The notes below the pieces were generated by a model. It did no database searches. It was not told the origin of the DNA and was given only the letters and a program-made list of their open reading frames with translations. Shown piece after piece: positions 13,298 to 40,926 of a DNA stretch of 64,000 bases (position 1 is its first letter; each line of letters begins with the position of its first letter). The translations under genes were made by a program, and so were the position numbers. The DNA lies in the NCBI RefSeq assembly GCF_016887565.1, contig NZ_CP069396.1:4677001-4741000 (forward strand). Reading direction: 5' to 3'. Origin of the DNA: Archangium violaceum (GTDB taxonomy: Bacteria > Myxococcota > Myxococcia > Myxococcales > Myxococcaceae).

Positions 13298-13771
13298 TCA
13301 GGATTTGGCCGGCGCGGGGGCGGCGGGTGCTTCCGGTGCCGCCTTGGCCTCTTCCCTGGGAGGTTCCGCGGGGGCCGCCCCCGTCTGGATGCGGCCCTCG
13401 AGCAGCTCGACGTCGAGCGAGGGCGGAAGGGGCGTGTTGAGGAATTCCTGCCACGTGCCGTCGGGAGCGGTGAAGAGGAAGGAGACGGCCAGGGGCGACT
13501 CCGGGGGAACCTTCACCTGGAGCCGCCGCAGCGTGCCCGGATAGATGATCTCCGAGTGGAGCACGTTCGGGTCGGACTGGAAGGCGCGGGCGGAAACCTC
13601 GGCATAGGACTCGACGGCGTACTGCGTGGGGTCCACCTTGCGCACGAGCATGTAGAGGGGGCGGCCCTGGTTGGTGCCAGGGGGCGCCTTGATGCGCAGT
13701 TGGAGCGTGGCCGGCTGGCAGGCGGTGAGCAGCAGCGGCACGACGGAGCAGAACAGGAACTGGCGTTTCAT
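13298..13771 (-). CDS. tssJ: T6SS outer-membrane lipoprotein TssJ-like
   Basis: A 157-aa lipoprotein with signal MKRQFLFCSVVPLLLTAC (lipobox LLTAC). The small beta-rich body contains LRIKAPPGTNQGRPLYMLVRK and FLFTAPDGTWQEF, fitting the transthyretin-like fold of TssJ/SciN, followed by an Ala/Pro/Glu-rich tail. Its ATG overlaps the tssM stop codon by 4 bp (ATGA), indicating translational coupling. TssJ anchors the TssJ-TssL-TssM membrane complex to the outer membrane, and the direct pairing with tssM supports the call. Sequence similarity of TssJ proteins is weak, so context carries much of the weight. Confidence 0.75.
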   Translation of the reverse strand: MKRQFLFCSVVPLLLTACQPATLQLRIKAPPGTNQGRPLYMLVRKVDPTQYAVESYAEVSARAFQSDPNVLHSEIIYPGTLRRLQVKVPPESPLAVSFLFTAPDGTWQEFLNTPLPPSLDVELLEGRIQTGAAPAEPPREEAKAAPEAPAAPAPAKS

Positions 13772-16700: not shown

Positions 16701-17454
16701 GCAGGGAGGCCACCTGGCCCTCCTCACCGCGAGGCGGCAGCGCGAAGGACAGGGGCACGTGGTGGGAGTGGAGCAGCTGGGAGAAGTCCTCGAAGCCCTC
16801 CAGCGAGTCCATGTGCGTCAGGCACAGGCGCGTCTCCACGGGGGCGCGGCGGACCTCGGCGAGCAGGTTGAGCTTGCCGCGCAGCAACTGCGCGGTGCGC
16901 CGCACCTCGTCGGGCGGAGTCTCCGCCAGCCAGCGCACGTCCAGCACGAGGATGACGAGGGCATGCTGTCCCTGGCCGAAGGTGTCCTTCCACAGCCCGC
17001 GCAGCGCCTTGCGGGCCTGGGGCGTGTCGTCCTCGAGCAGGGGGGCCGACACCTCCTGCACCACCGAGTCCGGCCCGAGGTAGAGCTTCAGCAGCGAGTC
17101 ACTCGTGTGGCTGGGGAGGAACTGGCGCGACTGCCGTTGCCAATCCACGTCCAGGGCGACGAGCTTCGACTTGCCACTGCCCGCGGGCCCGAGCACCACC
17201 GCGCACGGCAGGTCCTTCACGGCGGCGCGCTGCAACAGGGGCAGCGCGGCGAGGAACTGCTGGCGAATCCTGCGCAGCCGGTTGCCCGGCATGGGGGGCG
17301 GGGCCCCCTGGGACGTGGCCCCCCGCTGCCGCCGCCGGCGCAGCCACCAGACGAGTCCTGCCCCGGCGGCCAACAGGAGTAGTACGCCGAGTGCGAGCAG
17401 CAACCAGCCCCGGTAGGGGCTCGCGCTGGACCAGATACCGCGAAGCGTTTCCAT
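13768..17454 (-). CDS. tssM: T6SS inner-membrane protein TssM (IcmF/VasK family)
   Basis: 1228 aa, normal length for the family. First membrane span about 16-38. The cytoplasmic domain has the Walker A motif GPAGSGKS at 89-96 followed by the IcmF-type NTPase region. A second hydrophobic span at about 345-366 leads into a long periplasmic part that ends with the beta-rich C-terminal domain known to contact TssJ. A strong Shine-Dalgarno (GGAGG) precedes the ATG at 17452-17454. It is coupled to the 100-aa protein upstream (3-bp gap) and to tssJ downstream (4-bp overlap). It forms the T6SS trans-envelope channel with TssL and TssJ. Confidence 0.95.
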   Translation of the reverse strand: METLRGIWSSASPYRGWLLLALGVLLLLAAGAGLVWWLRRRRQRGATSQGAPPPMPGNRLRRIRQQFLAALPLLQRAAVKDLPCAVVLGPAGSGKSKLVALDVDWQRQSRQFLPSHTSDSLLKLYLGPDSVVQEVSAPLLEDDTPQARKALRGLWKDTFGQGQHALVILVLDVRWLAETPPDEVRRTAQLLRGKLNLLAEVRRAPVETRLCLTHMDSLEGFEDFSQLLHSHHVPLSFALPPRGEEGQVASLLHAQEKYLALGLTALPVDAFERLERFYSQGQGPFEALARFTTALLEGGTLAFVPTLSRVYLSSPSARAAGVLSVPSEAHDAQALHQRYSRTHLKRAAMLAAACSLPMLAAYAHFVWRLSQARERVGRFEDTVQRMRDQGQEVSGGVVQDQVLAAGQAMEGMERAKSYWPLLPYSFTEPREDLRRRLTRGIREAHLRPALERCHQQPDTCRPEQVVFILAALHASREEPLGQFVLSSLRNRRTSSFGGQEQQGASTAEASSLESKRSWLTAVNLVESLVGDYVVLSDKPWQAPNTPEADWARWPFPEPVSREGQLAPWQAHLKRLDEFLRAQSVEPGPMDWLNTELESMQEERLRLQAWLDDSAIFVSLPRALDLLKASEARVDTSRFRGVSSTLLAVEWMNKNREVLTAVLRMEEELYAGLKAAQKMSVAELLVRDGVWQPGASTKGSFQVTVTQGPLEFHPRDSSRQMHLAILRYYGRTGRLPFGSAWNGEEASGPSPAGVAEERLAFDTRIRPLVEEFTQRLKNADLPVEEASQRQEHVRRKVDQFALRYRQRLFQRARNYRFDAPTPSLLSEELSRLTQPSSELVDMLRDVAKGATLEPLEDPHYESLRNAVAPFKPIVQVMKPDESGNYALLNPYQALVAQLSDELHAVSRGGARAVPAPTGAAPPGKEGGGAAKLTEMLTPLGRIALSMMLEEEGSYLRKVDAWLDQQGIIGELRQPFRQPFLAVRELGQQEVEWTLQQQWDITWERMLRPLMDRYPFNPQATQEVEPGDLDILRRQDGVFWAFVDRVLSPVCEERGTEWVVRGALRERLTVPENLLPTLSRLSRLSRVLWDAEGRPRPLMLQVMPLPLPAEPLPGSYVTRGSLKCGKTTAFAYNQSPTWQAFPLDWWDQQTASLMLEVRSPEQQSVQYFSMEGRKHSAWSCFRLLEESLPTEEQQRLWSLRGRDAENTQYALELRFGLKGEPWTPFREVPQ

Positions 17455-17457
17455 GAC

Positions 17458-17760
17458 TCAGTCCTCCCTCCGGCCCATCGCGGGGCCAGGATGGCGCTGG
17501 GCGCGCGCGGCGCGCTGCAACGCCTCCAGAATGTCCTCGAGTGTGTCCAGCACCTGGTCGAGCCGGGTGCGTTGCTCCTGTTGCCGCTGGGGCGAGAGCT
17601 GCTGGCCTCCGGGCCCCGGGTGCAGCGCCGCCAGCCCCTGACGCAGCTCCTCCAGCAGCGGATCCACTCCCGCGCGCAGCGGGCCGAGCTCCGTGTCGAT
17701 GAGCCGCTCCAGGCGCTCCAACAGCGAGGGCGCCGTCTCCACGAGTGCACGTGCGTTCAT
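17458..17760 (-). CDS. Small T6SS-operon protein, coiled-coil, unknown function
   Basis: 100 aa starting MNARALVETAPSLLERLERL. It is almost entirely predicted helix with Leu/Gln/Arg heptads (two blocks around 10-45 and 55-90) and no signal or membrane segment. Lies tightly between tssL (10-bp gap) and tssM (3-bp gap), so it belongs to the same operon and probably to the membrane complex or its assembly. I do not recognise a named family. The longer upstream start (17826) would overlap tssL and is not needed. Confidence 0.65.
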   Translation of the reverse strand: MNARALVETAPSLLERLERLIDTELGPLRAGVDPLLEELRQGLAALHPGPGGQQLSPQRQQEQRTRLDQVLDTLEDILEALQRAARAQRHPGPAMGRRED

Positions 17761-17770
17761 GGCGCGGGCC

Positions 17771-18412
17771 TCAGTTGGAGCACCACCACAGCAGTCCCTG
17801 CAGCCCCAGCACGCAGAGGCAGGCACCGGCGTAGTAGCGGGTGGGAAGCTCGTAGAGCAGGGGCCTCGCGTTCGTGGCCACCGCGGGCGCGGCGGGCAGG
17901 GACTCCGGTATGACGATGCGGGCCGCCAGCCGCTGTTTGTACTCGCGCAGCTTCGCCGTGTTGCCCACGTAGCGGCCGCTGAATCCCGCGGTGAGGCAGA
18001 AGTGCAGCAGCTCGAACAGCAGGGGTGAGGCGCCCGGCTGATTCAGCTTCTGGTCGGCGAGCTCGTAGAACAGATCTCCACCGCCCTCCTCTCCGAAGAG
18101 GTGGCGCTGCAGGAGGGGCCAGTCGTACTGCTCGGCCTCGGCGAGGCGCCGCAGCACCCGTTCATCCAAGAGGTAGGTGAAAGGCCTCAACGCCTCCTCC
18201 ACCTCCTCGGAGCGGTAGTGGCCGCCCAGCCCGGACCGCAGTCCCTCCACCGTTGCCAGCAACTGCTGCTGCAACTGCTCCAACCCCGCGCGCCCCACCT
18301 GCACCTGGGTGCGCTCCTCCGTGTCGGACGACTCGGCCGGCAACCATTGATCCAGCAACGTCCGGGTCCGCCGGTACTCCGTGAAGACAATCTTCCAGTG
18401 CTCGAGATTCAT
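17771..18412 (-). CDS. tssL: T6SS inner-membrane protein TssL (DotU/IcmH family), without peptidoglycan-binding domain
   Basis: 213 aa starting at the ATG in the ATGA overlap with tssF. The helical cytoplasmic domain carries DotU-type motifs (RPFTYLLDERVL near 90-100; LLFELLHFCLTAGFSGRYVG near 140-160). A single C-terminal membrane anchor at about 192-211 (YYAGACLCVLGLQGLLWW) follows, leaving no periplasmic OmpA domain. Cell-wall anchoring must come from a separate protein; the OmpA-domain gene at 35372 in the same regulon is the natural candidate. Works with TssM and TssJ. Confidence 0.93.
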   Translation of the reverse strand: MNLEHWKIVFTEYRRTRTLLDQWLPAESSDTEERTQVQVGRAGLEQLQQQLLATVEGLRSGLGGHYRSEEVEEALRPFTYLLDERVLRRLAEAEQYDWPLLQRHLFGEEGGGDLFYELADQKLNQPGASPLLFELLHFCLTAGFSGRYVGNTAKLREYKQRLAARIVIPESLPAAPAVATNARPLLYELPTRYYAGACLCVLGLQGLLWWCSN

Positions 18413-20055
18413 CGGTTCCCCCAGGGGTTGAAAGGTCCGGCTCCCGCCACCGAGGCCCGCAGCTCCACGGAGGCCTCGCCATTCCACGCATCCAGCAGGG
18501 CCAGCAGCTGCTCGAGGAGGCAGGCCACCAGGGGCTCCTGGCTGGAGTCGAAGGGCGCGAGCTGGGCCTCGTACACGTGCCGCAGCCCCGTGCCCCGCAG
18601 GGCGCCATCCGGCAGCACGGAGGCGCGCAGCGTGCGCAGCAGGGGGATGATGGGGCGGAAGGCGCCCTCCACGGGCGTGCCCAGGTAGGAGAGCAGGGCG
18701 ACCAGCTCGTCGCGCTCCAGGGTGGGGCGGTTCTTCCAGGACAGCAGCTGGACGAGGGCGGACACGTCCTGGCGCACGGGGCTGTCCCGGGGGGGCTGGA
18801 CATCTCCCACCACGCGCCAGCGCAAGCCCTCCACGTGGACGCTGGGGGTGGACACCTCCAGACGGCCCGTGGCCTCCGAGGCGAAGCGGGGCTGGTACCA
18901 GAGGGCGTCCACGTGCAGCTTGCGTGGCTCAAGGAAGGCCTCCGGCATGCGGACCAGCAGCTGATGCAGGGGGCTGCCATCGGCGGCCAGTTGCTCGTCC
19001 AGCTCGTAGGCCGGCCCTGGCCCTGGCACATGGGCGGGGCGCATGGGCTCGCGGCCCCGAGGCCCTTGCAGGTACACCCCCGTCACCGAGTGCAGGCGGA
19101 GCTCGCGGCTATTGCGCAGGCCGAGCAGGGGGTGCTCGGTGCGGGTGCCGTCCAGGGTGATGGGCTGGGCGGGGGCGGCCTTGAGGTTGACGACGGGCGC
19201 GACGAAGGGGTGGAGGAACTCCGGGTGGAGCGAGCGCCCCACGGTCCACTCCTTCTTCAAATCCAGACACAGGCTGAAGCGGCTCCAGGCCTGTCGCGTG
19301 GGCGCCACCCGGACATGCAGGAAGAGGCCCTGCTCCGGGAGCTGGAAGAAGGAGCGCGCGCGGTGCAAGGGATTCTCGTAGACGCTCGCGTCGTCTGGCG
19401 CGAACGGCTCCTGGCCGAAGGAGTGCTCGCACCGCAATCCCGTCGAGCGCTCATCCGCCCTCTCGTCATACACCACGCTCACCCGCTCCAGGTGCTTGCG
19501 CAGCGCGTGGTGCACCGCCAGGGAGCTGCCGTACTCCTCCAGGTGGCGCACGTGGAGGCTGAGCACATCCAGCGGATCCCTCCGGGGGAAGGCCGCGGCG
19601 AAGCGGAGGATGAGGCGGTGGCCGCCGTCCGCCAGGCGCAGCACCTGCGTCTCCTCCAGGAAGATGGGCAGCACCCGCAGGTCTCGCTGAAGGCGGAAGG
19701 AGCCCGCCTCGCTTCCCACCGGCTGCAAGCGCAGCTCGGTGCCGCGGGGCAGCACCACCGCCTCCACCATCTTCTCCGTGGGCACTGCCTGCACCAGGCC
19801 CGCCGCGGGCAGCGGCTCGAGCAGACAATTGAAGAAGCTGGAGAAGAGGCGCAGCCACGTGGAGCGCAGGTTGCGCAGCGTGGCGTGCCGGGTCTGGATG
19901 GAGAAGAAGGCCATGGCCTCCACCAGCCGGCGCACGTCCGGGTCCTCCTGCTCCAGGGGCACCCCGGGGTAGGTGTGGCGGAAGCCCTGGCGGAAGCGTT
20001 CGAGAGCGGCCAGCTCCGCGAGATAGTCCTGATAGAGCTGATTGGTGGCACCCAT
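18409..20055 (-). CDS. tssF: T6SS baseplate protein TssF (ImpG/VasA)
   Basis: 548 aa, slightly short for the family (about 590-620). The N-terminus YQDYLAELAALERFRQGF followed by DPDVRRLVEAMAFFSIQTR is the usual TssF opening that reads (L)..RLLEA.AFL.ARi. The beta-rich middle includes PRGTELRLQP. TssF and TssG make the baseplate wedge with TssE. It is the first gene of a five-gene operon (tssF-tssL-100 aa-tssM-tssJ) and is preceded by island operator 2. No strong Shine-Dalgarno before the ATG. Confidence 0.93.
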   Translation of the reverse strand: MGATNQLYQDYLAELAALERFRQGFRHTYPGVPLEQEDPDVRRLVEAMAFFSIQTRHATLRNLRSTWLRLFSSFFNCLLEPLPAAGLVQAVPTEKMVEAVVLPRGTELRLQPVGSEAGSFRLQRDLRVLPIFLEETQVLRLADGGHRLILRFAAAFPRRDPLDVLSLHVRHLEEYGSSLAVHHALRKHLERVSVVYDERADERSTGLRCEHSFGQEPFAPDDASVYENPLHRARSFFQLPEQGLFLHVRVAPTRQAWSRFSLCLDLKKEWTVGRSLHPEFLHPFVAPVVNLKAAPAQPITLDGTRTEHPLLGLRNSRELRLHSVTGVYLQGPRGREPMRPAHVPGPGPAYELDEQLAADGSPLHQLLVRMPEAFLEPRKLHVDALWYQPRFASEATGRLEVSTPSVHVEGLRWRVVGDVQPPRDSPVRQDVSALVQLLSWKNRPTLERDELVALLSYLGTPVEGAFRPIIPLLRTLRASVLPDGALRGTGLRHVYEAQLAPFDSSQEPLVACLLEQLLALLDAWNGEASVELRASVAGAGPFNPWGNR

Positions 20056-20190: not shown

Positions 20191-20790
20191 TCAACCCAGC
20201 TTCACGAGCGAGCCGCTCACGCTGGTCATCGAGCCCTTCAGCTCGGCGACTCCCGAGGACTCGAGGCCGAGCTGGCCCTGGGCGGCCACCTTGATGAGGG
20301 GGGCCCCCAGCTCCGCCTGGGACTTGCCCTTCATCTCCAGCTTCACTCCCTCGAGCTTCAGCGCGCCGCCCGTGGCGGCGACCTGGCCCTCCATTCCCTC
20401 GAGAGCGAGCTTCTGGGTGGCCTTCACCTCGAGGTTGGCACCGGAGGAGAGGACCGCGTCCTTGGTGGACTTCTGGGTCAACTTCGCGCTGGAGGTGAAC
20501 GTCATGTCCTCCGTGCTCTCGAGCTGCAGGGTCTTCTCACTCGTCCACGCCGATTCCTTCTTGGATTGGAGGGTGATGGTGTCGGACTCCACGGTGAAGG
20601 CCTTGCAGGTGATGGTAACGCTGTCCGGCTTCTGGACGATGGTGCTCGTGTCGGAGTCGCTCTTCACCTCCAGGGTGATGGCCTTGCCATCCAGCGTCAC
20701 CGTCTGGGTGAGCTTCCCATCGGGATCCTCGACCGTGACGATCAGGCCCTTCTCCTTGTCCAGATCGATGGTGCAGATGAGCTTCGCCAT
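20191..20790 (-). CDS. Separate VgrG spike extension (triple beta-helix, gp5-C/DUF2345-like)
   Basis: 199 aa made of short repeated beta-strands (VTITCKAFTVESDTITLQSK, then KTLQLESTEDMTFTSSAKL and LEVKATQKLALEGMEGQVAAT). This is the pattern of the trimeric beta-helix at the tip of gp5/VgrG. The C-terminus GSMTSVSGSLVKLG resembles VgrG needle ends. It follows the VgrG-like gene by 12 bp and is the last gene of the tssB operon. Here the spike shaft and tip are two proteins; normally the needle is part of VgrG. Probably seats a PAAR-type tip or effector. Confidence 0.75.
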   Translation of the reverse strand: MAKLICTIDLDKEKGLIVTVEDPDGKLTQTVTLDGKAITLEVKSDSDTSTIVQKPDSVTITCKAFTVESDTITLQSKKESAWTSEKTLQLESTEDMTFTSSAKLTQKSTKDAVLSSGANLEVKATQKLALEGMEGQVAATGGALKLEGVKLEMKGKSQAELGAPLIKVAAQGQLGLESSGVAELKGSMTSVSGSLVKLG

Positions 20791-22450: not shown

Positions 22451-22831
22451 TCAGTCCTTCCTTTCGAGCCGCACCCGGCTGCTCACGGTGTCGAAGATGA
22501 GGCGCAGCCGGAGGGCTTCCCCGCCCAGCAGGCCCGTCACATCGAAGTGCAGACACAACGCTCCATCCTGGCCCCTCAGCGTCACCGCCACGTCGCGCAG
22601 CCGCGGCTCGTACTGCGTCACCTGGCGCTGCAACTCCTCCGTGAGGAAAGGGACCAGCTCCTTGCCGCCCCGGTCCCCGGTGTAGTCCCCGAGGCCGAAG
22701 CCCTGCTGGAAGTAGCCGTAGCCCTCTCGGGTGTTGAGCACGGCCTCGAGGTTGCGCACCACGGGGCCCAGGGCATCCCGAGCGGTGGGACCACGGCTGG
22801 AGAACCTGTCGAGAAAGGGGCGGCGCGCCAT
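22451..22831 (-). CDS. tssE: T6SS baseplate protein TssE (gp25-like)
   Basis: 126 aa from the ATG at 22829-22831, which has GGAGG 6-8 nt upstream. MARRPFLDRF opening, then VVRNLEAVLNTREGYGYFQQ and FGLGDYTG; the NLE..LNTR segment and the Y..FGLPD-type motif are diagnostic of gp25/TssE. Sits between tssK (1-bp gap) and the VgrG-like gene (1-bp gap). Connects the sheath to the baseplate. Confidence 0.93.
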   Translation of the reverse strand: MARRPFLDRFSSRGPTARDALGPVVRNLEAVLNTREGYGYFQQGFGLGDYTGDRGGKELVPFLTEELQRQVTQYEPRLRDVAVTLRGQDGALCLHFDVTGLLGGEALRLRLIFDTVSSRVRLERKD

Positions 22832-22832
22832 G

Positions 22833-24089
22833 TCACGTCCTCCGCCAGAAGAGGAAGAGCTGGGCACCCTCCAGCGGCGGGGTGACGGGGAGGGCCACGC
22901 CGTCCTCGCGCAGGGCCGCCTGCCACTCGTCGCCCTCGGTGGTGAGCTGGTACCAGTCGATGTCCGAGTCGAAGGAGTGGGGGAACGAAGGGTAGGGGAC
23001 GTGGCGGAAGGTCAGCCCCTTGAGAGCCATGCGCCGCACCGTCGGCAGGCGCAGCGGGCTGGCGAGCTTCACGCCATCCAGGGAGCGGGGCTTGTCGCGC
23101 TCGTGGCGCCGCACCAGCAGGTAGAAGTCATTGGGCATGGGCTCCTCCTGGGGGAGGGGCGAGAGCACGAAGCGTCCCTCGCGGCACTCGAAGGGCCGGT
23201 ACGAGCGCTTGTTCGCGCTCGTCGGGCGGAGGCCCCGGTCGAGCAGCTCCATCCACCGCCACAGTCCCGGGCCGGGCTGGTCGTGCTCGTAGGCGGGCAG
23301 CTCCTCTTCCGGCTCGCACTCCAGGTAGCAGCACAGCTCGAGGTACAGCCGGCGGAGGACCTCGAAGAGCTGGTACGTGGGTGGGTGCAGGCCATGGCGC
23401 ATGTCCGCGCGCAGGCCCTGGACACGGCGCACCTCGCACAGGGCGCGCCGGGCATTGGAGAGCCGGTCGCCTCGCACGAAGGTGTCGCGGATGGCGGTGC
23501 GCAGCTGCCCGCGTGCCTGATCCAACATTTCATCCAGGCGGGTGAGCAGCCCATCGAGGAACGGATGGGGGCTCGCCCGCAGCAGCGGGGGAAGCTGCTC
23601 CCGCGAGAGCGACCATCTGCCGTGCTCGTCCTTGGTGAGCTCGGCGAGCGCCAGGGTGCTGATCGCCCCATCGAGGGCCTGCTCCATGGAGAGTTGCAGG
23701 ATGTGCAGCGAGCGGTGGAGCGCCGGGGGGTCCTTCTCGTACAGGGGGATGCCCTCGGCGCCGCGCGTCTCGTGCATCAGGTGCAGGTACAGGGTGAGCC
23801 GCGAGCGGCCCGTCTCGTCCAACGAGACGGGCGCCACGGTGGCGTTGCCGGGCACCTGCACCAGGTGGCCGCCCGGCATGATGGCCGTCAACGAGCTGAG
23901 GGCGAAGGTGCCCTCGGCCAGTTGCGCCCGGTTGAGCTCGAGCGCACCAATGCCAGACAAGGGCAGGCCCGTGAGCTCGGCCGTGAGCAGGGTTTCGGCG
24001 AGGAGGACCTCGTCCTGGGCCCGGAAGTGCTCGGGCAGGAGCATCTGCCCCGCCTGCCAGCGGACGCGTGCGATCTTGTGGGGATTCAT
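22833..24089 (-). CDS. tssK: T6SS baseplate protein TssK (ImpJ/VasE)
   Basis: 418 aa with the family opening VRWQAGQMLLPEHFRAQDE (W..G..L.PqHFq). The shell domain contains PGNATVAPVSLDET, a helical middle follows, and the C-terminal neck/head region contains FYLLVR and IDWYQL. TssK trimers tie the baseplate wedges to TssL/TssM. Normal length for the family. Between the Hcp-like gene (45 bp upstream) and tssE in the tssB operon. Confidence 0.95.
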   Translation of the reverse strand: MNPHKIARVRWQAGQMLLPEHFRAQDEVLLAETLLTAELTGLPLSGIGALELNRAQLAEGTFALSSLTAIMPGGHLVQVPGNATVAPVSLDETGRSRLTLYLHLMHETRGAEGIPLYEKDPPALHRSLHILQLSMEQALDGAISTLALAELTKDEHGRWSLSREQLPPLLRASPHPFLDGLLTRLDEMLDQARGQLRTAIRDTFVRGDRLSNARRALCEVRRVQGLRADMRHGLHPPTYQLFEVLRRLYLELCCYLECEPEEELPAYEHDQPGPGLWRWMELLDRGLRPTSANKRSYRPFECREGRFVLSPLPQEEPMPNDFYLLVRRHERDKPRSLDGVKLASPLRLPTVRRMALKGLTFRHVPYPSFPHSFDSDIDWYQLTTEGDEWQAALREDGVALPVTPPLEGAQLFLFWRRT

Positions 24090-24134: not shown

Positions 24135-24701
24135 CTACCCCTTGAAGCCCCACTTCTTCTCGACCTTCATCTGCGGCGCGCTGGCCAGGGTCAGCTGCTG
24201 TTCCTGGGGCTGCGGCTTGATGCCGATCTGGAAGGTGAAGTTCTGCGGCGAGGCCACCTCGTCGTCCGGGTCGTCCGCGACCATCAGCTTCAGTTCGTCC
24301 CCGCTCTTCTCCACCAGGCCCATCAGCGCCTTGCTGGGGAAGTTGGACTTGAAGTACTTCTTCTCCAGCGGGTCGTACTGGTAGATGGTGTAGTTGAACT
24401 CCACCTCGATGCTGGTCATGTCGCTCAGCACCAGCATGGCGAGGAGCTGCCGGTTGGCGGTGGAGATCTGGCCGGAGAAGTACATGGAATCCGTCGCGCC
24501 CGTATCCCACAGGTAGTGATTGAGCACCGCCACGGCCTTGAGATCCTCCGTGGGCTTCTCCGGGTTCTTGATGGTCTCCAGGTCGGCCTTGATCTCCTTG
24601 CCGGCGATCTTCATGGTCAGAATGACGCCGACGTTGCTCTGCTTGTCCTTCTTGAAGTTGAATCCCTGGTACACGTCGAGGCTGCGGCTGAACTTGGGCA
24701 T
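24135..24701 (-). CDS. Hcp-like T6SS tube protein (candidate TssD)
   Basis: 188 aa, all-beta, starting MPKFSRSLDVYQGFNFKKDK with conserved-looking blocks SNVGVILTMKIAGKEIKADL and STANRQLLAMLVLSDMTSIE. Size and position directly after tssC and before tssK are those of hcp in many T6SS loci, and no other Hcp candidate exists in the island. Sequence similarity to classical Hcp is not obvious by eye, so the identification is mostly contextual. If correct it forms the hexameric inner tube that is expelled by the sheath. Confidence 0.55.
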   Translation of the reverse strand: MPKFSRSLDVYQGFNFKKDKQSNVGVILTMKIAGKEIKADLETIKNPEKPTEDLKAVAVLNHYLWDTGATDSMYFSGQISTANRQLLAMLVLSDMTSIEVEFNYTIYQYDPLEKKYFKSNFPSKALMGLVEKSGDELKLMVADDPDDEVASPQNFTFQIGIKPQPQEQQLTLASAPQMKVEKKWGFKG

Positions 24702-24743: not shown

Positions 24744-26237
24744 CTAGCCGAGCCGCGACTCGAGCTGGAGCTCGACGTTGAGGCCCTCGAACTGGATGTG
24801 GGGGAGGACGGAGACCTTGCAGTCGTACCAGCCGATCTCTCCCGAGCGCTTCACCACCTGGACCTGGGCGGCCTTGAAGGGGAAGCGGCGCAGCGTGAGG
24901 TCATCCGGGTTGGTCACTGCGGTGACGTAGTCCATCAGCCAGGTGCTGATCTGCTGGTGGATGTAGACCTCGTCGGCCGAACTGCCGATGTTGTCGCGCA
25001 TGATGCTCTTCACGTAGTGCGCGAGCCGGGTGATGGAGAACGTGTAGGCCAGGTTGGTGACGAGCTGCGCGTTCTCCGAGTCCTTCGGGTCCTTGTAGCG
25101 CTTGGCGCGCTTGATGGAGGGGGTGCTGAAGAACGTCGCCTCCGCCTCGTTCTTCCGGTACACCAGCGGCATGAATCCGTGGCGGACGAACTCGTACTCC
25201 CGGAAGTCCGGGATGCACATCTCCACCGGCATCTGCATTTCCTGCTGACCGCGCAGGGTGAAGGTGTCCACCGGCAGGCCCTGGATGCGCCCGCCGCCCT
25301 TGGGGCCGCGGATGGACTGGCACCAGCCGGACAGCTCGAAGGCGCTCGCCAGGTTGCGTCCGAAGAGGATGGCGGCGTTGCCCCAGAGGTACTTCTTCGA
25401 GTCGCCGTGGGCCTCCTCGGTGAAGTTGAGCACCTCGCACGGGTTGGTGACCGGGTTGTACGGCAGCCGCACCACGTAGCGCGGCAGCGCCAGGCTGACG
25501 TAGGCCCCCGACTCGCTCTCGCGCAGCTCCGCCCACTTGCCGTAGCGCGGGTGGTTGAGCACGCCGTCCAGGCTCTTGAGCGACTCGAGCTGCTCGACGC
25601 TCTCGCAGTCGAAGAACTTGTAGCTGGCCGAGGCCACGAAGGGGCAGTGCGCGGCGTTGGCCACCCAGCTCATGCGCTCCAGCCACAGCAGGTCCGGCCG
25701 CGACGCCGTGAACTCATACAGTCCGAGCATCACGCCGAACGGCCGCCCGCCGTACTGGTCGTACTCGCGGGTGTAGACCTTGTTGAAGAGCGCGCTGGAG
25801 AAGATGCTGCTCGCGTTCTTCTCGAAGTCCTGGGCCAGCTCCTGCTTGGACACGTCCAGCAGGTCGATGGTGATGTTGGCCTGGAAGTTGGTGTGGTTGA
25901 CTAGGTCCTCCACGCCGCGCCACGTGGCCTCCGCCTTCTGGAAGGTCTCGTGGTGGAGGATTTCATTCACCTGGGCCTCGATGATCTCATCCAGGCGGGC
26001 CACGGCGTTCATCACCTGGCCCTTGTCGAAGCGCGGCCGGTTGTCCTCGTCCTTGAGCGGCTTCACGTTGTGGAGCAGCGCCGCCAGCGCGGACAGGAAA
26101 CGGCTGTCGGTGGAGATCTCGCTCTCCTGGAGTGAGGTGGGGATCAGGCCCGAGCCGATCATGGGCTCGGCGGACGCCGGAGGGGCGCCCAGGCCCCGGC
26201 TCTTGAAGATGTCCTGCAGGTAGTTTCTCTCAGCCAT
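24744..26237 (-). CDS. tssC: T6SS sheath protein TssC (VipB)
   Basis: 497 aa. Contains the family blocks ATWRGVEDLVNHTNF (W.GL..L), FEKNASSIFSSALFNKVYTR, EYDQYGGRPFGVMLGLYEF and the C-terminal YTFSITRLAHYVKSIMRDNIG followed by WLMDYV. Forms the contractile sheath with TssB, whose gene is 45 bp upstream. Strong conservation makes this one of the surest calls of the locus. Confidence 0.97.
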   Translation of the reverse strand: MAERNYLQDIFKSRGLGAPPASAEPMIGSGLIPTSLQESEISTDSRFLSALAALLHNVKPLKDEDNRPRFDKGQVMNAVARLDEIIEAQVNEILHHETFQKAEATWRGVEDLVNHTNFQANITIDLLDVSKQELAQDFEKNASSIFSSALFNKVYTREYDQYGGRPFGVMLGLYEFTASRPDLLWLERMSWVANAAHCPFVASASYKFFDCESVEQLESLKSLDGVLNHPRYGKWAELRESESGAYVSLALPRYVVRLPYNPVTNPCEVLNFTEEAHGDSKKYLWGNAAILFGRNLASAFELSGWCQSIRGPKGGGRIQGLPVDTFTLRGQQEMQMPVEMCIPDFREYEFVRHGFMPLVYRKNEAEATFFSTPSIKRAKRYKDPKDSENAQLVTNLAYTFSITRLAHYVKSIMRDNIGSSADEVYIHQQISTWLMDYVTAVTNPDDLTLRRFPFKAAQVQVVKRSGEIGWYDCKVSVLPHIQFEGLNVELQLESRLG

Positions 26238-26282: not shown

Positions 26283-26816
26283 TCAGGCGTCCGCCGTGCC
26301 GCCAGCAGGCAGGCGCAGGTTCTCGAAGCCCTTGAGCGAGTCGCTCTCCAGCAGCTTCTCGATGTCCTCGGGGTTGGCGTACAGCTCGGAGAGCGTGCGC
26401 CAGAGGTCCTTGCGGTTGTCGATGTCCGCCTGCATCTCCAGCAGCAGCTTGCGGAGCACGAGCAGGGCCTTGAGCTTGGGCACGTGCTGGACGAACTCGT
26501 CGGGGTGGAAGGACTTCATCTTCTCGAGGGGCAGCGTCACGTTGAGCGAGCCCTGGCCGTCCGCGGCGGTCTTGTCCGGCACCTGGAACTCGATGGACAT
26601 GTTCATGTCCTTCATCAGGTCGTCCAGGCCGCCGGGCTTGACGGAGCGCAGCTTGCGCTCGTCCAGGTCCACCTTCCGGTCCTTCGCCGAGCCAAAGGAG
26701 AGATCGGCGAGGACGAGCATGCGGAAGGGCAGGTCGACCTCCTCCTCCTGCCCATTGATGGTGGTGCGGTAGGTGAGGGTGATGCGCGAGGTGGGAAGTT
26801 TGTCTTGGATGGGCAA
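26283..26816 (-). CDS. tssB: T6SS sheath protein TssB (VipA), TTG start
   Basis: 177 aa. Motifs VDLPFRMLVLADLSFG (typical LPF.l.vlgDfs), KVDLDERKLRSVKPGGLDDL, and ILR-type middle FVQHVPKLKALLVLRKLL. The initiation codon is TTG (26814-26816) with an excellent Shine-Dalgarno AAGGAG 7 nt upstream; no ATG lies in a better position. First gene of the operon tssB-tssC-hcp-like-tssK-tssE-vgrG-spike. Preceded by operator 3. Confidence 0.96.
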   Translation of the reverse strand: MPIQDKLPTSRITLTYRTTINGQEEEVDLPFRMLVLADLSFGSAKDRKVDLDERKLRSVKPGGLDDLMKDMNMSIEFQVPDKTAADGQGSLNVTLPLEKMKSFHPDEFVQHVPKLKALLVLRKLLLEMQADIDNRKDLWRTLSELYANPEDIEKLLESDSLKGFENLRLPAGGTADA

Positions 26817-29505: not shown

Positions 29506-29613
29506 TGCCATGTTCCTCCTGCCGTGAATTACTTGTTCCGTGCTCGTTCGCCAAAGCATCGAAGCCCTACCGCTACGACACACACCAGACTGCCCTCCAA
29601 GCCACATCCGCGC

Positions 29614-29652
29614 TGTGACGCGACTCACCCTCCGGGTGTGAGTCAGGACACG
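29614..29652 (-). promoter_or_regulatory. Island operator palindrome 4 (upstream of 805-aa effector candidate)
   Basis: Arms TGTGACGCGACTCA and TGAGTCAGGACACG, spacer 11 bp. It overlaps the last codons of tssG. CAGTC instead of CAGAG lies at the 20-nt position, so the downstream box is weaker here. Confidence 0.65.
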
Positions 29653-30554
29653 ATGTTTGTGTTGAGCCCGTCACACGTAAGCCCAGCCGGTTCCTGGTGT
29701 GAGGTCTTGCCGCAGAAGAGGATGAACTGTTGAGGGCGGTTCTCCGCATCCACCAACGGTGCATAGCCGAGGTAGCTGTCTTGCTGGAGACGGGCTGGGG
29801 CGCTCTGGTCACGCAGCGCCATCTGGACGGTCAGGGGCAACGAGGTCTGGACCAGGAGGGGCAGCACTCCTTGCGTCAGTCGGCGCGGAGCTTCAATAGC
29901 CCAGGGGATTCCCATTCCGCATTGGCTCTCATTGAAGAAGAGCACCACTTCCAGTCCACCTGTGGGCACGGAAGCAAAGCCACCCAGGGCCGTGGAGTCT
30001 CCCAGCGTTGTGGCACTCAACTGGGAGCCTTGTGTCGCCACCGGTTGCACGTGCACCTTACGCCGCACGGACACTTCTGCCTCGGGATAGGCTTGGATGA
30101 ACAGCCAGTGCAACGTGCTGGGGCTGGTGAGGTTCAGCAGGCTCAACCGGTGCTGGGTGGCGTTCTCCCATCCGGGGAGCAATGCGGAGTTCTGCTCCGG
30201 ATAGAGCCCCGCGAAGCGCGCCCGGAGCAATTCATGATCAAAATAGCCCAGGAACCGCTCCATCCGCTCCGCCTCCAGCGGGTCCGTCTGCTCCATCGTC
30301 TGGAGGAGGAACGCGGGGAGGGGAGATTGCACGCCGAGCAGGCCGAGGTTCACCGTGAGGATGACGCGGCGGTGCGGCACCTGGAGGAATTGGATGTCAT
30401 GCACCAGGTGGCCCTGGTGCACGAGCGTGCGGTGACTGCGGTATTCGATGTCATTCTCGCCGTAGCCTTCCTGGGCAAGCAGGGCCAGCAGGGCGGGCAT
30501 GTCGAAGTGGCGGATGCGCTCGCGGAGGCGTTGCTCGAGCTGGGGACCGCTCAT
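29643..30554 (-). CDS. tssG: T6SS baseplate protein TssG (ImpH/VasB)
   Basis: 303 aa starting MSGPQLEQRLRERIRHFDM with GGAGG 7 nt upstream. Family features: IEYRSHRTLVHQGHLVHDIQ near the N-terminus; the block VNLGLLGVQSPLPAFLLQTM (typical fGL.G..GpLP..l) near 75-95; and ERFLGYFDHELLRARFAGLY after it. Partner of TssF in the baseplate wedge. Last gene of the operon ligase-like/PAAR-like/TssA-like/tssG; its start overlaps the end of the preceding gene by 4 bp. Confidence 0.93.
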   Translation of the reverse strand: MSGPQLEQRLRERIRHFDMPALLALLAQEGYGENDIEYRSHRTLVHQGHLVHDIQFLQVPHRRVILTVNLGLLGVQSPLPAFLLQTMEQTDPLEAERMERFLGYFDHELLRARFAGLYPEQNSALLPGWENATQHRLSLLNLTSPSTLHWLFIQAYPEAEVSVRRKVHVQPVATQGSQLSATTLGDSTALGGFASVPTGGLEVVLFFNESQCGMGIPWAIEAPRRLTQGVLPLLVQTSLPLTVQMALRDQSAPARLQQDSYLGYAPLVDAENRPQQFILFCGKTSHQEPAGLTCDGLNTNIVS

Positions 30555-31696
30555 GACTCGTCCTCCGCTCCGGAAGCGGCGCTCAGGAACGCTTGCAGGT
30601 CCGTCCGGTAGAGCCGCTCGAGGGCACGCTCGCTCAAGGACCTGGAGCCCTGCATCCGGGGCTCGAGCCTTTCCCCATGGGCGCTCAAGCCCGCGAGGAA
30701 GCGGGAGAAGAGCGAGGGCAGATAGACGAGCGGATCGAAGTGGTCGATGACGTGGAGCACGTCCGTGGCGATCATGCTGGCGCGGGAGAAGTCCTGGCGT
30801 TCCACGAGCGTGTCGAAGGCAGCCAGCTTGTGCAGCAGTTGCTCCAGTGCAGGCGAGTGCCCTTGCGCGAGGGGCGGGGGCGAGCGCGTCCGCAGGGCCC
30901 TGGGCGCCTCGAGATGGAACTCCTCCTCGTCTTCTTCCTCCTCCTCCTCGTCTTCCTGCTCCTCGTCCTCCAGTTCCTTGGAAGTGTCCTCGTGGGTCGC
31001 TTCCTCTTCCGGCTCGGCGGGCGGCTCTTCCTTTCTCCTTTCGACCACCGGCGCTTTCTCTTCCTTCACCAGCGCCTTCGCCTGCTCCACGGCTCGCGCC
31101 TGTACAGGGTTGGCATTCGTCTCCGGGAAGAGCTCCCGCTGCTCGGTCAGCCAGCCGGTCACCTGGAGCAACCGGGTGAGGCCACCTCCACCGGGCGTGC
31201 GTTGCTCGAGTACCTCCACCAGCTTGCTGGCGTGCTGGAGCGCCTCCTGGACGTGGGACTGCGAACAGCTCTCGCACCACCTCCGCCATACGTCGTCCTG
31301 GGTCCGCCCATGAAACTCCAGGTGTTTGTGGAGTGTCTTGAACAGCCAGAGCAGGCCACTGTCGGCCAGGGTGGGCTTGTTGTCGTCGGGCCCGAGCTGC
31401 TCCCATCCCCGCGTGTAGACCTGGTGCAGGGCGGAGAAGAGCGCGGGCAGGGACCGCGGGCCCTGTGCCAGGAAGGTTCCAAAGACATACGGGGTCACCA
31501 GTCGCACATCACGGATGCCGTCGCGCAGCAGCGTCTCGGACGCTCGCGCCGCCTCGTCATAGGCGCCCCGCGCCATCTGGGCGATGACCCGATCCACCCG
31601 CGTCTCCACCTGCTCGGGTGTCAGGGTGGACATCGGGCCAGGGGCCGCCTTCAGTGTGCGCTCCAGCGCGGCGAGCGACTCCAGGAGCTCAGCCAT
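30551..31696 (-). CDS. TssA/IglI-like T6SS protein with acidic low-complexity linker
   Basis: 381 aa. The helical N-terminal part (1-190) includes HQVYTRGWEQLGPDD, similar to the ImpA-type opening of TssA proteins. A highly acidic run (EEEQEDEEEEEEDEEEF-like) lies at about 235-262. The C-terminal helical domain FDTLVERQDFSRASMIATDV with HFDPLVYLPSLFSRFL resembles the C-terminal part of TssA/IglI-group proteins, where FDP..YFP is typical. TssA caps and coordinates sheath polymerisation. Which subgroup this is cannot be settled by eye; IglI family is my best guess. Overlaps tssG and the PAAR-like gene by 4 and 8 bp. Confidence 0.65.
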   Translation of the reverse strand: MAELLESLAALERTLKAAPGPMSTLTPEQVETRVDRVIAQMARGAYDEAARASETLLRDGIRDVRLVTPYVFGTFLAQGPRSLPALFSALHQVYTRGWEQLGPDDNKPTLADSGLLWLFKTLHKHLEFHGRTQDDVWRRWCESCSQSHVQEALQHASKLVEVLEQRTPGGGGLTRLLQVTGWLTEQRELFPETNANPVQARAVEQAKALVKEEKAPVVERRKEEPPAEPEEEATHEDTSKELEDEEQEDEEEEEEDEEEFHLEAPRALRTRSPPPLAQGHSPALEQLLHKLAAFDTLVERQDFSRASMIATDVLHVIDHFDPLVYLPSLFSRFLAGLSAHGERLEPRMQGSRSLSERALERLYRTDLQAFLSAASGAEDES

Positions 31697-32077: not shown

Positions 32078-33763
32078 TCATTTCCTCGTGTTCGGGGGGG
32101 ACGCGGCTTGCCGCACCTGGGCTCGCAACGCGGTGAGTGTCTGGAACAGGGGCTCCGAGGCCTTGTGGTAGAGCGAGCCCGTCAGGTATTGCGCGTGGCA
32201 CCACGCGTCGCTCACCCGGCCCTCCTTGAGCCTCGGGTAGAGCGGGAAGACCTCGAACCGGTCGGGGATGTGCTCGGGGCCGAGCTGCAACTCGATGCGC
32301 CGGCGCATGTCCGCCAGGAACAGCGCCGGATCTCGTGGGGGATGGCCGGTGAAGACGAGCAACACGGTGCGCAGCTCGCCCGACACACCTCCCGTGGGCA
32401 CGGTGAGCAGGGAGGTCGCGCAGGGCGGGTCCATTCCCTCCAGCGCCTCCGTCACCTCGGCGGCGGGAACGACCCGTCCCTCGTGCCGCGGCTCCCGCGT
32501 GCCCGCGTAATGGTACCGCTGGCGGATGCAGGAGAGGACGACATGGCCGGGCGGCCTGCCCTCCGCGGGCAGCAGGGTGAAGAGGCCCGAGTCCCCCGCG
32601 GCGCGTTGACCGCTCCGGTTGAGATCCTTCAGGGCCCAGCGCCGGCCCGGCGCGGGCGCGGCCTCGGTGTGCACATCCCCCACGCGCCGGAGCGAGCAGA
32701 GCACCGCGCCTCCCGCCGTCGCATCCACGAGGACGTTGGCGCAGGGCACCGACGTCAGCCCGCACTGCTTCACCCAGGCGCGCCACGCCTCCCAGTCGAG
32801 GGGGGCCTCGGGGTTGCGGAACCAGCCGCCCACCTTCTCGAGCCGGGTCCGGGTGCGCAGCAGCAGGTCCCTCAGCGCCGGGGTGACGCCGAGCGCGCGC
32901 ACCGGGTATTCGGTCAGCAGGGTGGGGCGCTCCTCCAGGTCCGAGGGCTCGAGGTGGAGGAAGGTGGCGCCCCGCAGTAGCGTGGCGAAGAGGAGGGCGG
33001 GCAGGTGCTGGAGCAGGTGGAAGCCGGGGGCGGCCAGGTGGTCTCCCGGGGCCAGCGCGAAGGTGAGCGCTCCATCCACCAGCGCGCCGAGCCAGGCGTC
33101 CCCGGCCTTGAGGGGAACCGGGGTGGAGGGGGAGTCCACCAGGGGAGAGAAGAGCAGGCCCACCGGCTCGTCCGGTTTGTAGGAGTAGGAGGCGAGCGCG
33201 GGCGTGGCGGGGCCGGTGGTGGGCAGCAGGCACTTCGCATAGGGCCCCAGGAAGGGCGCCTGGTGGGGCTCGGCCGCCACGTGCTGGGGCGCGAGCGCGG
33301 CCAGGCGGCGCGAGACGAAGCTCCGGCCCACGGGCGGCAGCAGGCTGATGCAGGCCCCCAACCCCAGCGCCGCGGCGAGGCCCACCCACAGCTCGGGGCC
33401 GGGGTGGAACAGCAGGCACACCCGGGCTCCCGGCTTGACGCCCCGCTGCTCCCACGCCGTGGCCAGCCGTGCCGCCTGGTCGTGCAGCTGGCGGTAGCTG
33501 AGGGTCCGCCAGCCCCGGGTCCGGTCATACGTGCGCAGCGCGATGCGATCCGAGGCGGCGTGGCGGACGATGAGGTCATGGAAGAAGTCGTGGTGCTGGC
33601 CCGTGCGGCTCTTGAAGGGTGCACCGCGGCCCGCGTGGGCCGGAGACAGGGCCGCGGCGAAGCCCTCCGGGTCGGTCCAGCTCCGGCGGAGCCAGTCGGG
33701 GAGGCCCGGGGCGGGGGCGGCCTCCTCGACCTGTTGGAGAATGGTGCGGAAGTCGAAGGACAT
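32078..33763 (-). CDS. Degenerate AMP-ligase-like (ANL superfamily) protein at the head of a T6SS operon
   Basis: 561 aa. The N-terminal layout is that of an acyl-AMP ligase (FHDLIVRHAASDRIALRTYD, WRTLSYRQLHDQAARLATAW, GVKPGARVCLLFHPGPELWV). However, the ATP-binding P-loop (S/TSGSTGxPKG) is missing: the equivalent stretch reads GLLFSPLVDSPSTPVPLKAG. No YGPTE-like motif is seen. A C-terminal Lys is present in YPRLKEGRVSDAWCHA, near where A10 would be. It is therefore probably a pseudoenzyme or binds something else. Start chosen as MSFDFRTIL. The promoter box ends only about 9 nt before this ATG and there is no Shine-Dalgarno, so the mRNA may be leaderless. A truncated copy of its 5' end lies at 35244-35363. 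Confidence 0.75.
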   Translation of the reverse strand: MSFDFRTILQQVEEAAPAPGLPDWLRRSWTDPEGFAAALSPAHAGRGAPFKSRTGQHHDFFHDLIVRHAASDRIALRTYDRTRGWRTLSYRQLHDQAARLATAWEQRGVKPGARVCLLFHPGPELWVGLAAALGLGACISLLPPVGRSFVSRRLAALAPQHVAAEPHQAPFLGPYAKCLLPTTGPATPALASYSYKPDEPVGLLFSPLVDSPSTPVPLKAGDAWLGALVDGALTFALAPGDHLAAPGFHLLQHLPALLFATLLRGATFLHLEPSDLEERPTLLTEYPVRALGVTPALRDLLLRTRTRLEKVGGWFRNPEAPLDWEAWRAWVKQCGLTSVPCANVLVDATAGGAVLCSLRRVGDVHTEAAPAPGRRWALKDLNRSGQRAAGDSGLFTLLPAEGRPPGHVVLSCIRQRYHYAGTREPRHEGRVVPAAEVTEALEGMDPPCATSLLTVPTGGVSGELRTVLLVFTGHPPRDPALFLADMRRRIELQLGPEHIPDRFEVFPLYPRLKEGRVSDAWCHAQYLTGSLYHKASEPLFQTLTALRAQVRQAASPPNTRK

Positions 33764-33837
33764 GCGGAGCACTCTGCCGGTGCTTCGCCGCACGGGCTGT
33801 GACGGTGTTCAACCGGAGCTTGTGAGAGGAATCACAG
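33761..33837 (-). promoter_or_regulatory. Island operator palindrome 5 and CAGAG box (upstream of ligase-like/PAAR/tssA-like/tssG operon)
   Basis: Operator 33798-33836: arms TGTGACGGTGTTCA and TGAGAGGAATCACA, spacer 11 bp. CAGAG at 33772-33776, 20 nt from the outer CACAG. The whole segment 33761-33837 is duplicated, with a few mismatches, at 36734-36810. The 230 bp beyond it (33840-34072) show nothing else. Confidence 0.72.
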
Positions 33838-34072
33838 CGCTGAGTGGCTCCAGGGGCGCGCGGCTACCGCGTGCTTGCCCAAGGTGCGTGCACCGGGCCA
33901 GGTCGAGCACCGATTCCGGGGCCAGGTGGGTTCATTGGTGGGGCCGAAGGAGCGGGAGGGGAGGGAAGTTGCGGCCAGCGGTGCTCGACCCCGCTGGAAC
34001 GAGTGCTCGAGTTGGCCGGAATACGCAATCCGGGGGCACAGGTCGTGCGGGCGTAACCCCCCTCACACCCGT

Positions 34073-35243: not shown

Positions 35244-35363
35244 CGGTAGCTGGGGGTCCGCCAGCCCCGGGTCCGGTCATACGTGCGCAGCGCGATGCGG
35301 TCCGTGGCGGCGTGGCGGACGATGAGGTCATGGAAGAAGAATGGTGCGGAAGTCGAAGGACAT
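35244..35363 (-). pseudogene. Truncated duplicate of the 5' end of the ligase-like gene
   Basis: 35340-35363 equals 33740-33763 (start codon and first codons, MSFDFRTI) and 35244-35339 equals 33492-33587 with only a few substitutions. The intervening 152 bp of the original are deleted at a short GAAGA junction, shifting frame after about 11 codons. It lies 8 bp downstream of the OmpA-domain gene. Confidence 0.85.
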
Positions 35364-35371
35364 GGCGGCTT

Positions 35372-36736
35372 TTAGGGGACTTCCCTGGTGATGGGCGCCG
35401 GCACGGTCGAGACGAACACCTCCACTCGCGGGGTGCGCACCTGTCCCTCGGACCTCCGCACCCGCAGGTTCGCCGGGGGCACCCCTTGCCCGGCCAGGTA
35501 GTTCCGGACGGCCTGCGCGCGCTTGAGCGGCAGCAGGCGATCCGCTGTCTCGCTCCCCTCCTGGCCCGCGTGTCCCTCGAGGACGACGACGGACTCCCCG
35601 GGACGGGAGCGCAGGAGCATGAGCACCGCCTGCAACAGGCTCAGGTCTCCGGGCAGCTCCGCGCGCCCCGGCTCGAAGAGCACCGAGCCCTGGAGGAGGG
35701 GAGTGGTGTTCGCGGCAGGAGCCTCGGCGGGGAGCAACTCCCGGGTGGGTACGGGCATCACCCTCTGGCGGGGCGCTTCCTCCCGGGAAGCGAGGAGCTC
35801 CGGCTCCAGGCGGAACCGGGGAATGGTCTCCGTGAGCCGCTCCAGGCCGGGAGGAGGCTCCGTGTGGAACCCCAGGCCCAGGAGCACCCGCGCGGTGGGT
35901 GTACCGGGCGCCGTGCCCAGGCCGGGTCCTCCCAGGGCGAACAGCTCCAGCCCATGGGGCAGCGGCATCCGCACGCCTCCCAGCACCTCGATGGAGGGGG
36001 ACCGCGTGTCCATGGAGAAGGCGCTCCGGATGGCGAGCTCGCCTCGGAGCCCCTTGTGCGTCACGGCCACTCCGGCGCCCAGGCGCAGCTCGGGAATGAG
36101 GTTCGTGGAGGCCGTGCCGGACAGGGGGTTGGAAGGCCGCAGCAGCACGCCCGCGTCGAGTGCGGGCTCGAGCCATCCCCACCGTCTACCCACGGTGACC
36201 CGGGCGCGGAAGCGCATTCCCGGGTCACGCGCCAGGGCGGACGGGCTCCCCACGGGCAGTCCGGCGCCCAGGTCCACCGAGAGATCCACGGGCTGCTCCT
36301 GGCGCAGCGACAGCAATCCCAGCCGGGCCTGGAGCACCGGTGTACCGAGCCCGTGCGCGGTCAGGGGCGGCAGTCCCATGTGGCTGGAATCTCCGCCCTG
36401 CTGCCAGAGCACCACGGGGAGCTGTGCTCCCACTTCGAGCCAGGGCAGCACGCCATAGCTGCCCGCCAGCACGGTCGAGGCCCGGTGGCGGACCCGAGCC
36501 ATGCGTTCCCCCCCGTTCCGCAGCACGAGCGGCAGGTGCTGGTAGTGTCCGACCAGCCCCGCGCTCACGCCACCGGGGACCAGCAGCTCGCCATTGCCAG
36601 CCAGCAGGGAGCCCCGTCCCGTATTGAGCTCCAGGCGCTCCAGCTCGAAACCGGACGCCGCGGTCTGGGCCGGGGCCGTCGAGCAACTCAGGAGGGCCGC
36701 CACGGCAGCGCCTCGCATCAACGCGGGGATGTGCAT
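35372..36736 (-). CDS. OmpA-family cell-wall-binding outer-membrane protein
   Basis: 454 aa starting MHIPALMRGAAVAALLSC with a signal peptide (cleavage near AQTAA). Residues 30-300 are beta-strand-rich (porin-like barrel). The C-terminal OmpA domain at about 340-440 contains GSVLFEPGRAELPGD, VVVLEGHAGQEGSETADRLL and LKRAQAVRNYLAGQGVPPAN; D and R of the canonical TD...LSxxRA peptidoglycan-binding pattern are partly retained (TADRLLPLKRAQAV). Since TssL here lacks a peptidoglycan-binding domain, this protein may supply the anchor for the T6SS membrane complex. Its promoter (operator 6) is a duplicate of that of the ligase-like operon. The ATG lies about 9 nt from the CAGAG box, suggesting a leaderless mRNA. 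Confidence 0.8.
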   Translation of the reverse strand: MHIPALMRGAAVAALLSCSTAPAQTAASGFELERLELNTGRGSLLAGNGELLVPGGVSAGLVGHYQHLPLVLRNGGERMARVRHRASTVLAGSYGVLPWLEVGAQLPVVLWQQGGDSSHMGLPPLTAHGLGTPVLQARLGLLSLRQEQPVDLSVDLGAGLPVGSPSALARDPGMRFRARVTVGRRWGWLEPALDAGVLLRPSNPLSGTASTNLIPELRLGAGVAVTHKGLRGELAIRSAFSMDTRSPSIEVLGGVRMPLPHGLELFALGGPGLGTAPGTPTARVLLGLGFHTEPPPGLERLTETIPRFRLEPELLASREEAPRQRVMPVPTRELLPAEAPAANTTPLLQGSVLFEPGRAELPGDLSLLQAVLMLLRSRPGESVVVLEGHAGQEGSETADRLLPLKRAQAVRNYLAGQGVPPANLRVRRSEGQVRTPRVEVFVSTVPAPITREVP

Positions 36737-36810
36737 GCGGAGCACTCTGCCGGTGCTTCGCCGCACGGACTGTGACGGGATTCAATCGGAGCCTGTGAGA
36801 GCAATCACAG
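36734..36810 (-). promoter_or_regulatory. Island operator palindrome 6 and CAGAG box (upstream of OmpA-family gene), duplicate of operator 5
   Basis: Operator 36771-36809: arms TGTGACGGGATTCA and TGAGAGCAATCACA, spacer 11 bp. CAGAG at 36745-36749, again 20 nt from CACAG. The 77-bp segment matches 33761-33837 with about six substitutions. Confidence 0.72.
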
Positions 36811-40825: not shown

Positions 40826-40926
40826 CCCACGCCTTTCCACGAATCCAGATTTGACTTCTCCGCCCATTCGGTGGGGGCGGGAAGCGCTGGATGCGCCGCG
40901 CCGAATTCGACTCCTCGAGGCCCCTG

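Follow-up and report, generated by a model that had tools for sequence, protein, structure and literature searches.

An acyl-CoA synthetase-fold gene conserved in the IglI-type type VI secretion systems of Archangium violaceum and its relatives, with a putatively non-catalytic product

The core subunits of type VI secretion systems (T6SSs) have generally been traced to phage tails or membrane proteins. The present analysis concerns a gene (hereafter referred to as the ANL gene) that opens a T6SS operon in Archangium violaceum and whose product is predicted to have the fold of the ANL enzymes. It lies in a stretch of 64,000 nucleotides (hereafter the window; G000:C1:4677001-4741000) of a 13.2 Mb genome that consists of one contig. 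The ANL gene belongs to the conserved core of the IglI-type, or Francisella-like, T6SS, the window containing both an IglI-family protein and a DUF4280 tip, which are among the features by which this type is recognised. A role for its product as a non-catalytic docking or initiation adaptor, serving as an obligate structural subunit of these machines, is proposed below on the basis of sequence patterns and analogy and is considered to have an even chance of being correct. The original prediction, made from the sequence of the window, had placed an adenylation-like pseudoenzyme, absent from the standard component lists, in a T6SS core operon; the near-perfect linkage with T6SSs across genomes described here agrees with it.

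Predicted fold and loss of the catalytic motifs

The ANL open reading frame (ORF) is read from an ATG at 33763 to a TGA at 32078-32080 on the minus strand. The sole Pfam match of its product is to the N-terminal piece of the AMP-binding family (residues 71-144, E-value 8e-14). A profile of 15 homologues matched ANL enzymes of the Protein Data Bank (PDB) in the N-terminal part and, for some of them, also in the C-terminal part. In a profile-profile comparison, 484 columns of a profile of 55 homologues could be aligned (E-value 2e-19) with 12 ANL proteins that are encoded in the same genome and have a P-loop. The AlphaFold2 (AF2) model calculated from the 55-sequence alignment has a predicted local distance difference test (pLDDT) score of 89.7 and a predicted template modelling (pTM) score of 0.89; these 55 sequences from two phyla were needed for a confident model, the 15 close homologues giving a pLDDT of 52. 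All the 50 PDB matches listed by Foldseek for the model are ANL enzymes, acetyl-CoA synthetases being the best (E-value 5e-27, template modelling score of about 0.7). The protein is thus modelled with the two-domain ANL fold along its whole chain, an N-terminal followed by a C-terminal domain, as in the acyl-CoA synthetases, EntE/DhbE and the adenylation domains of nonribosomal peptide synthetases (NRPSs).

Unlike the active ANL enzymes, the T6SS homologues lack the P-loop, A5 and A10 residues and have other residues invariant. The residues F205-S206-P207 (FSP, within FSPL) are invariant at the former P-loop position in 55/55 homologues, and a P-loop-like string ([ST]SG[ST][ST]GxPKG) occurs in none of the 55 aligned sequences. 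Similarly, the Thr-Glu of the A5 motif (Tyr-Gly-x-Thr-Glu) is lost in every homologue, the site reading L-V-D-A-[AST]-x-G-G, and the column of the A10 lysine holds R, Q, A, P, V or E among the counts listed for the 55 homologues and never Lys. Conserved instead of the catalytic residues are D347 (54/55), G351, G352, W521, C522, Q525 (54/55), G529, L531 and K534 (54/55). D391, kept in 51 of the 55, is possibly the A7 aspartate and was not used as evidence since the alignment of A7 is uncertain. These substitutions indicate a protein of the acyl-CoA synthetase (ANL) fold that is presumably without catalytic activity. The ANL layout without a P-loop, as originally predicted, is therefore recovered by structure prediction and structural comparison, by profile-profile comparison and in all the 55 homologues, with no intact nucleotide-binding loop in the alignment.

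As the loss is common to the Planctomycetota and the distant Myxococcota members, the putatively dead state is old in this protein family. The ratio of nonsynonymous to synonymous substitution rates (dN/dS) of the ANL gene, 0.13-0.24, resembles those of TssC, TssG and VgrG and indicates purifying selection. The chaperone families DUF2169/Tvp, DUF4123 and DUF1795 were matched neither by the protein of the window at E-values of up to 0.1 nor by its distant homologues at E-values of up to 10, AMP-binding being the only match, and no model of IglF or of another T6SS family in the family libraries matched the C-terminal two thirds of the protein.

Occurrence and co-inheritance

Orthologues of the ANL gene (54-84% identity) open or lie within a T6SS locus in Archangium, Pyxidicoccus, Corallococcus, Citreicoccus, Hyalangium and Myxococcus. 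Among the 96 Myxococcaceae genomes, IglI scored over the cut-off in 52, of which 51 have the ANL gene; in the remaining one (G008), the contig is cut off at IglI. The gene is absent in all the 44 IglI-negative Myxococcaceae genomes, 13 of which carry TssB, that is, another T6SS. The lone IglI-positive genome found elsewhere in the Myxococcota (L086, from another family) also has it, in the order TssM, IglE-type lipoprotein, ANL (29-31% identity), DUF4280 (70%), IglI, TssG, TssB and TssC. In the Planctomycetota, the gene is present in the three IglI-positive genomes (3/3) and in none of the other sampled genomes of that class: in L097 the order is Clp-type ATPase, TssM, IglE-type lipoprotein, ANL, IglI and TssG, in L101/L099 ANL adjoins TssG, and in L098, where a contig end leaves only a fragment, the C-terminal portion of ANL precedes IglI. 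The IglE-type lipoproteins (L086:12677-13114 and L097:7183-7638) match PF22361 with E-values of 7.5e-24 and 9.7e-26, respectively. Wherever the locus is readable, the ANL homologues are always within a T6SS locus. At strict thresholds, none of 247 Acidobacteriota and 241 Verrucomicrobiota genomes was matched by the ANL profile, nor did IglI match any of 398 genomes from the phylum that includes Hydrogenophaga; these negative results are weak evidence of absence. In G002, the ANL gene (L053:14030-15681) is interrupted near residue 420 by a frame change, which may be a sequencing error or a real break. Francisella-type markers were also observed outside Francisella, namely the below-cut-off match to the short VgrG model in the window and the IglE of L086 and L097, possibly representing an intermediate between the ordinary and the Francisella T6SSs.

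In almost every Myxococcota locus examined, DUF4280 comes directly after the ANL gene, often overlapping it or lying no more than a few hundred bases away. A DUF4280 gene was found neither near ANL in two Myxococcaceae hybrid loci (G015 and G080) nor beside the Planctomycetota copies, so that the conservation of the pair, named in the original prediction as a point to be checked, holds as a usual neighbourhood and fails in these loci. A lipase-like ORF with a GHSLG motif, recognised by eye, follows ANL at L093:4707-6512, where DUF4280 is absent.

Co-inheritance was examined by comparing the identities and distances of ANL with those of the other T6SS genes over 21 loci. The correlations (r) with ANL are highest for TssL (.92), the small gene at 17458 (.90), TssM (.89) and TssK (.88), and lower for TssC (.62), VgrG (.59), DUF4280 (.46) and Hcp (.18), the bootstrap interval of the difference between the membrane and the tail correlations being 0.15 to 0.46 over all loci. 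In hybrid Myxococcaceae loci, TssB, TssC, TssE, TssF, TssG, VgrG and IglI are very divergent (tail genes 16-54% identical to those of the window), and OmpA, ANL, TssK, TssL, the small gene and TssM resemble their counterparts in the window. Phylogenetic trees place the window and the hybrids in a supported clade for ANL, TssK, TssM and TssL; the same clade is rejected by TssC (p 0.007) and TssF (p 0.03). TssK and the short spike gene lay inside the exchanged block, so that the exchange must have been more complex than a single contiguous replacement. Mosaic T6SS loci, in which divergent sheath, wedge and hub genes accompany a window-like membrane complex, TssK and ANL, were observed as L039/L151, L093/L153, L088/L155, L087/L157 and L160/L159. 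With the tail mean removed, the type-A loci give correlations of.71 for IglI,.64 for TssL,.61 for the small gene,.52 for TssM and -0.09 for DUF4280. These patterns indicate that ANL is co-inherited with the membrane complex (TssL, TssM and the small gene) and TssK, and not with the tail or the tip.

The T6SS operon of the window

From ANL onwards, the minus-strand run consists of DUF4280, IglI, TssG, a familyless gene of 810-846 amino acids, TssB, TssC, tube, TssK, TssE, hub-like, spike, TssF, TssL, small and TssM genes (Table 1). As in the canonical T6SS core (TssA-M, ClpV, Hcp, VgrG, PAAR), TssB, C, E, F, G, K, L and M are clearly present, whereas the ANL-fold gene, the IglI-family gene and the DUF4280 tip are additions to it. 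The first position in the run, the overlap with the PAAR-like gene (DUF4280, PF14107), whose start at 32081 would share an ATGA with the ANL stop, and the presence of tssG after the IglI gene are all as predicted. The neighbour originally described as TssA-like belongs, by exact label, to the IglI family; the description was nonetheless near, since TssA-like proteins from ordinary T6SSs (G025, G027; L150:2332-3918) are weak matches of the IglI model, which suggests that IglI may be a distant TssA relative. A second complete T6SS copy with its own ANL gene is present elsewhere in the same genome.

Table 1. Positions of the ANL gene, its diagnostic sites and the associated T6SS features in the window
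Feature	Position	Strand	Basis
ANL-fold protein, putative pseudoenzyme, 561 aa	32078..33763	-	Pfam, profile-profile, AF2, Foldseek
Site of missing A3/P-loop, residues 205-218, FSPLVDSPSTPVPL replacing YTSGSTGxPKGV	33110..33151	-	alignment
Codon at A10 catalytic lysine position, residue 516 = Arg	32216..32218	-	alignment
Family-specific C-terminal motif W521-C522..Q525...G529.L531..K534	32162..32203	-	(nearly) invariant, 55 homologues, two phyla
Truncated duplicate of ANL gene 5' end, 96 nt 97% + 27 nt 100%	35244..35364	-	sequence comparison
OmpA-domain protein	35372..36766	-	directly upstream of ANL gene in relatives
DUF4280 PAAR-like tip protein, 128 aa	31689..32075	-	PF14107, E-value 2.6e-37
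IglI-family T6SS protein	30551..31696	-	NF041244, E-value 2e-76, over cut-off
TssG	29643..30554	-	family match
TssB (VipA)	26283..26816	-	family match
TssC (VipB)	24744..26237	-	family match
Hcp/tube protein	24135..24701	-	position alone; no Pfam or NCBIfam match
TssK	22833..24089	-	family match
TssE (gp25)	22451..22867	-	family match
VgrG/hub-like protein, 548 aa	20803..22449	-	position; no family match
Short spike protein	20191..20790	-	Francisella-type VgrG model NF041249, E-value 2.5e-5 (below cut-off), nearly full length; DUF2345 weakly
TssF	18409..20055	-	family match
TssL/DotU	17771..18487	-	family match
Small familyless gene between TssL and TssM	17458..17826	-	position
TssM/IcmF	13768..17454	-	family match

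In the relatives, OmpA and ANL are adjacent; in the window they are separated by genes for an HNH nuclease (34558-34986) and a DUF4265 protein (34073-34600). The 81 nt upstream of the ANL gene are duplicated at 36734-36814 with 93% identity (within 33738-36814), in addition to the truncated duplicate of its 5' end, and it looks as if insertion of a cassette supplied ANL with a copy of the OmpA promoter. Three further ORFs were observed in the window. The familyless ORF between TssG and TssB (27088-29628, 846 amino acids) was not found in the other loci and is possibly strain-specific cargo. A protein of 1537 amino acids with repeated HYDIN/choice-of-anchor-D Ig-like domains is encoded at 8511-13124, and in several T6SS loci a relative of it is encoded immediately upstream of ANL. 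An ORF of 5428 amino acids with AMP-binding domains (40891-57177), probably an NRPS gene, adjoins the T6SS locus.

Probable role of the ANL protein

In the proposed mechanism, the ANL protein would sit cytoplasmically on the TssK-TssL-TssM platform and, without catalysis, would receive or hold the tip (DUF4280/VgrG) together with the IglI protein; the tip and IglI thus held would allow sheath assembly to start. Because ANL tracks TssL, TssM and TssK and not DUF4280, this role agrees better with the data than that of a chaperone serving the tip protein only. Several observations weigh against this interpretation. In the type-A loci alone, the correlation with ANL is 0.94 for the membrane and 0.93 for the tail genes, so that the signal leans on one module exchange, and IglI also correlates with ANL inside type A. 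ANL is situated on the border of the exchanged block, and its linkage or position alone could therefore explain part of the co-inheritance. Further, Francisella IglF, with which ANL is compared below, makes contact with the tip protein and undergoes secretion, properties that would be equally fitting for a factor bound to the tip.

A chaperone of the tip protein, one of the roles suggested in the original prediction, now appears unlikely, although it deserves consideration. Such a chaperone or adaptor, devoted to DUF4280, would shield the hydrophobic tip and load it onto VgrG as DUF2169/Tvp does for DUF4150 tips. It would account for the adjacency of ANL and DUF4280 in nearly all the Myxococcota loci and for the retention of the pair in the distant L086, where ANL is down to 29-31% identity and DUF4280 is at 70%, and it has parallels in the thiolase-like proteins known beside DUF2169/DUF4150 (PMC11883445), in the class II Tvp systems with an extra predicted PAAR chaperone (PMC13373197) and in the binding of the DUF4280 protein IglG by IglF in Francisella (PMC5014421). 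However, the correlation of DUF4280 with ANL (against 0.88-0.92 for TssK and the membrane genes) is the lowest bar that of Hcp and falls to -0.09 to -0.31 once the tail mean is removed, and ANL persists without a detectable nearby DUF4280 in the G015 and G080 hybrids and in the Planctomycetota. The complete two-domain fold, along with the (nearly) invariant Asp347 and Gly351-Gly352 beside the former A5 site, would also be consistent with a metabolic sensor that gates firing through a remodelled pocket binding a nucleotide, an acyl-adenylate, CoA or a lipid, an improbable role given that none of the 55 sequences has kept the P-loop, the A5 Thr-Glu or the A10 lysine.

A secreted effector or tip-carried cargo is more doubtful still. 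IglF has been proposed to be an effector and its secretion is T6SS-dependent (PMC5014421; PMC5924787), and ANL adjoins the tip gene; but effectors differ between strains, like the gene at 27088-29628 here, whereas ANL occurs as one copy per system in nearly every IglI locus of two phyla, evolves slowly at a conserved position and has lost every enzymatic residue examined. The genome has more than 100 ANL domains and a large NRPS gene next door, so that an ordinary or decaying metabolic gene placed by chance was also considered; its probability is negligible, being ruled out by the co-occurrence, the two-phylum synteny, the purifying selection and the family-specific invariant residues.

The ANL protein may have a counterpart in Francisella, in which the gene order is pdpB (TssM)-iglE-vgrG-iglF-iglG (DUF4280), with iglI close by. 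Like IglF, the ANL protein is encoded directly upstream of DUF4280 (IglG in Francisella), and in L086 it occupies the iglF slot, between IglE and IglI and beside DUF4280, as it does in L097 without DUF4280; unlike the ANL loci, Francisella has vgrG between iglE and iglF. The sizes are similar as well, IglF being 67.9 kDa (PMC5924787) and the ANL proteins 561-602 amino acids. IglF is required for assembly to be efficient, deletion of its gene leaving about one sheath assembly per 400 cells (PMC5481754). ANL may thus be regarded, by position, as the counterpart of IglF, and their homology is put forward as a hypothesis; the likeness is one of position and size, the papers on IglF cited here reporting no fold. 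The more extensive proposal, that the ANL pseudoenzyme is an ancient, unrecognised core subunit at the membrane-complex/TssK platform of the IglI-type machines and that IglF is its homologue, is tentative and falls a little short of an even chance.

Enzyme-like accessory proteins near PAAR-like tips have a precedent: DUF2169/Tvp and a thiolase-like protein are likewise encoded by accessory genes beside a PAAR-like tip gene in Pseudomonas aeruginosa and Proteus clusters, and one of these proteins resembles an enzyme in its fold (PMC11883445, PMC13373197). Unlike ANL, they have other folds, serve another tip family (DUF4150) and are tied to particular VgrG-effector islands and not to the core operon. 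An ANL-fold core T6SS subunit appears to be undescribed, as a literature search that excluded subscription papers and preprints found no T6SS subunit reported to be an AMP-binding protein, an acyl-CoA synthetase or an adenylate-forming enzyme. If the proposed role is correct, a repurposed acyl-CoA synthetase as a fixed T6SS subunit would constitute a new kind of part, and its contacts with TssK, TssL, TssM, IglI and DUF4280 would become testable in harmless soil bacteria. It would also provide a fold hypothesis for IglF, a protein required for assembly in Francisella, and calls for caution in annotation, as genes labelled 'AMP-binding' or 'acyl-CoA ligase' in such T6SS operons would not be metabolic.
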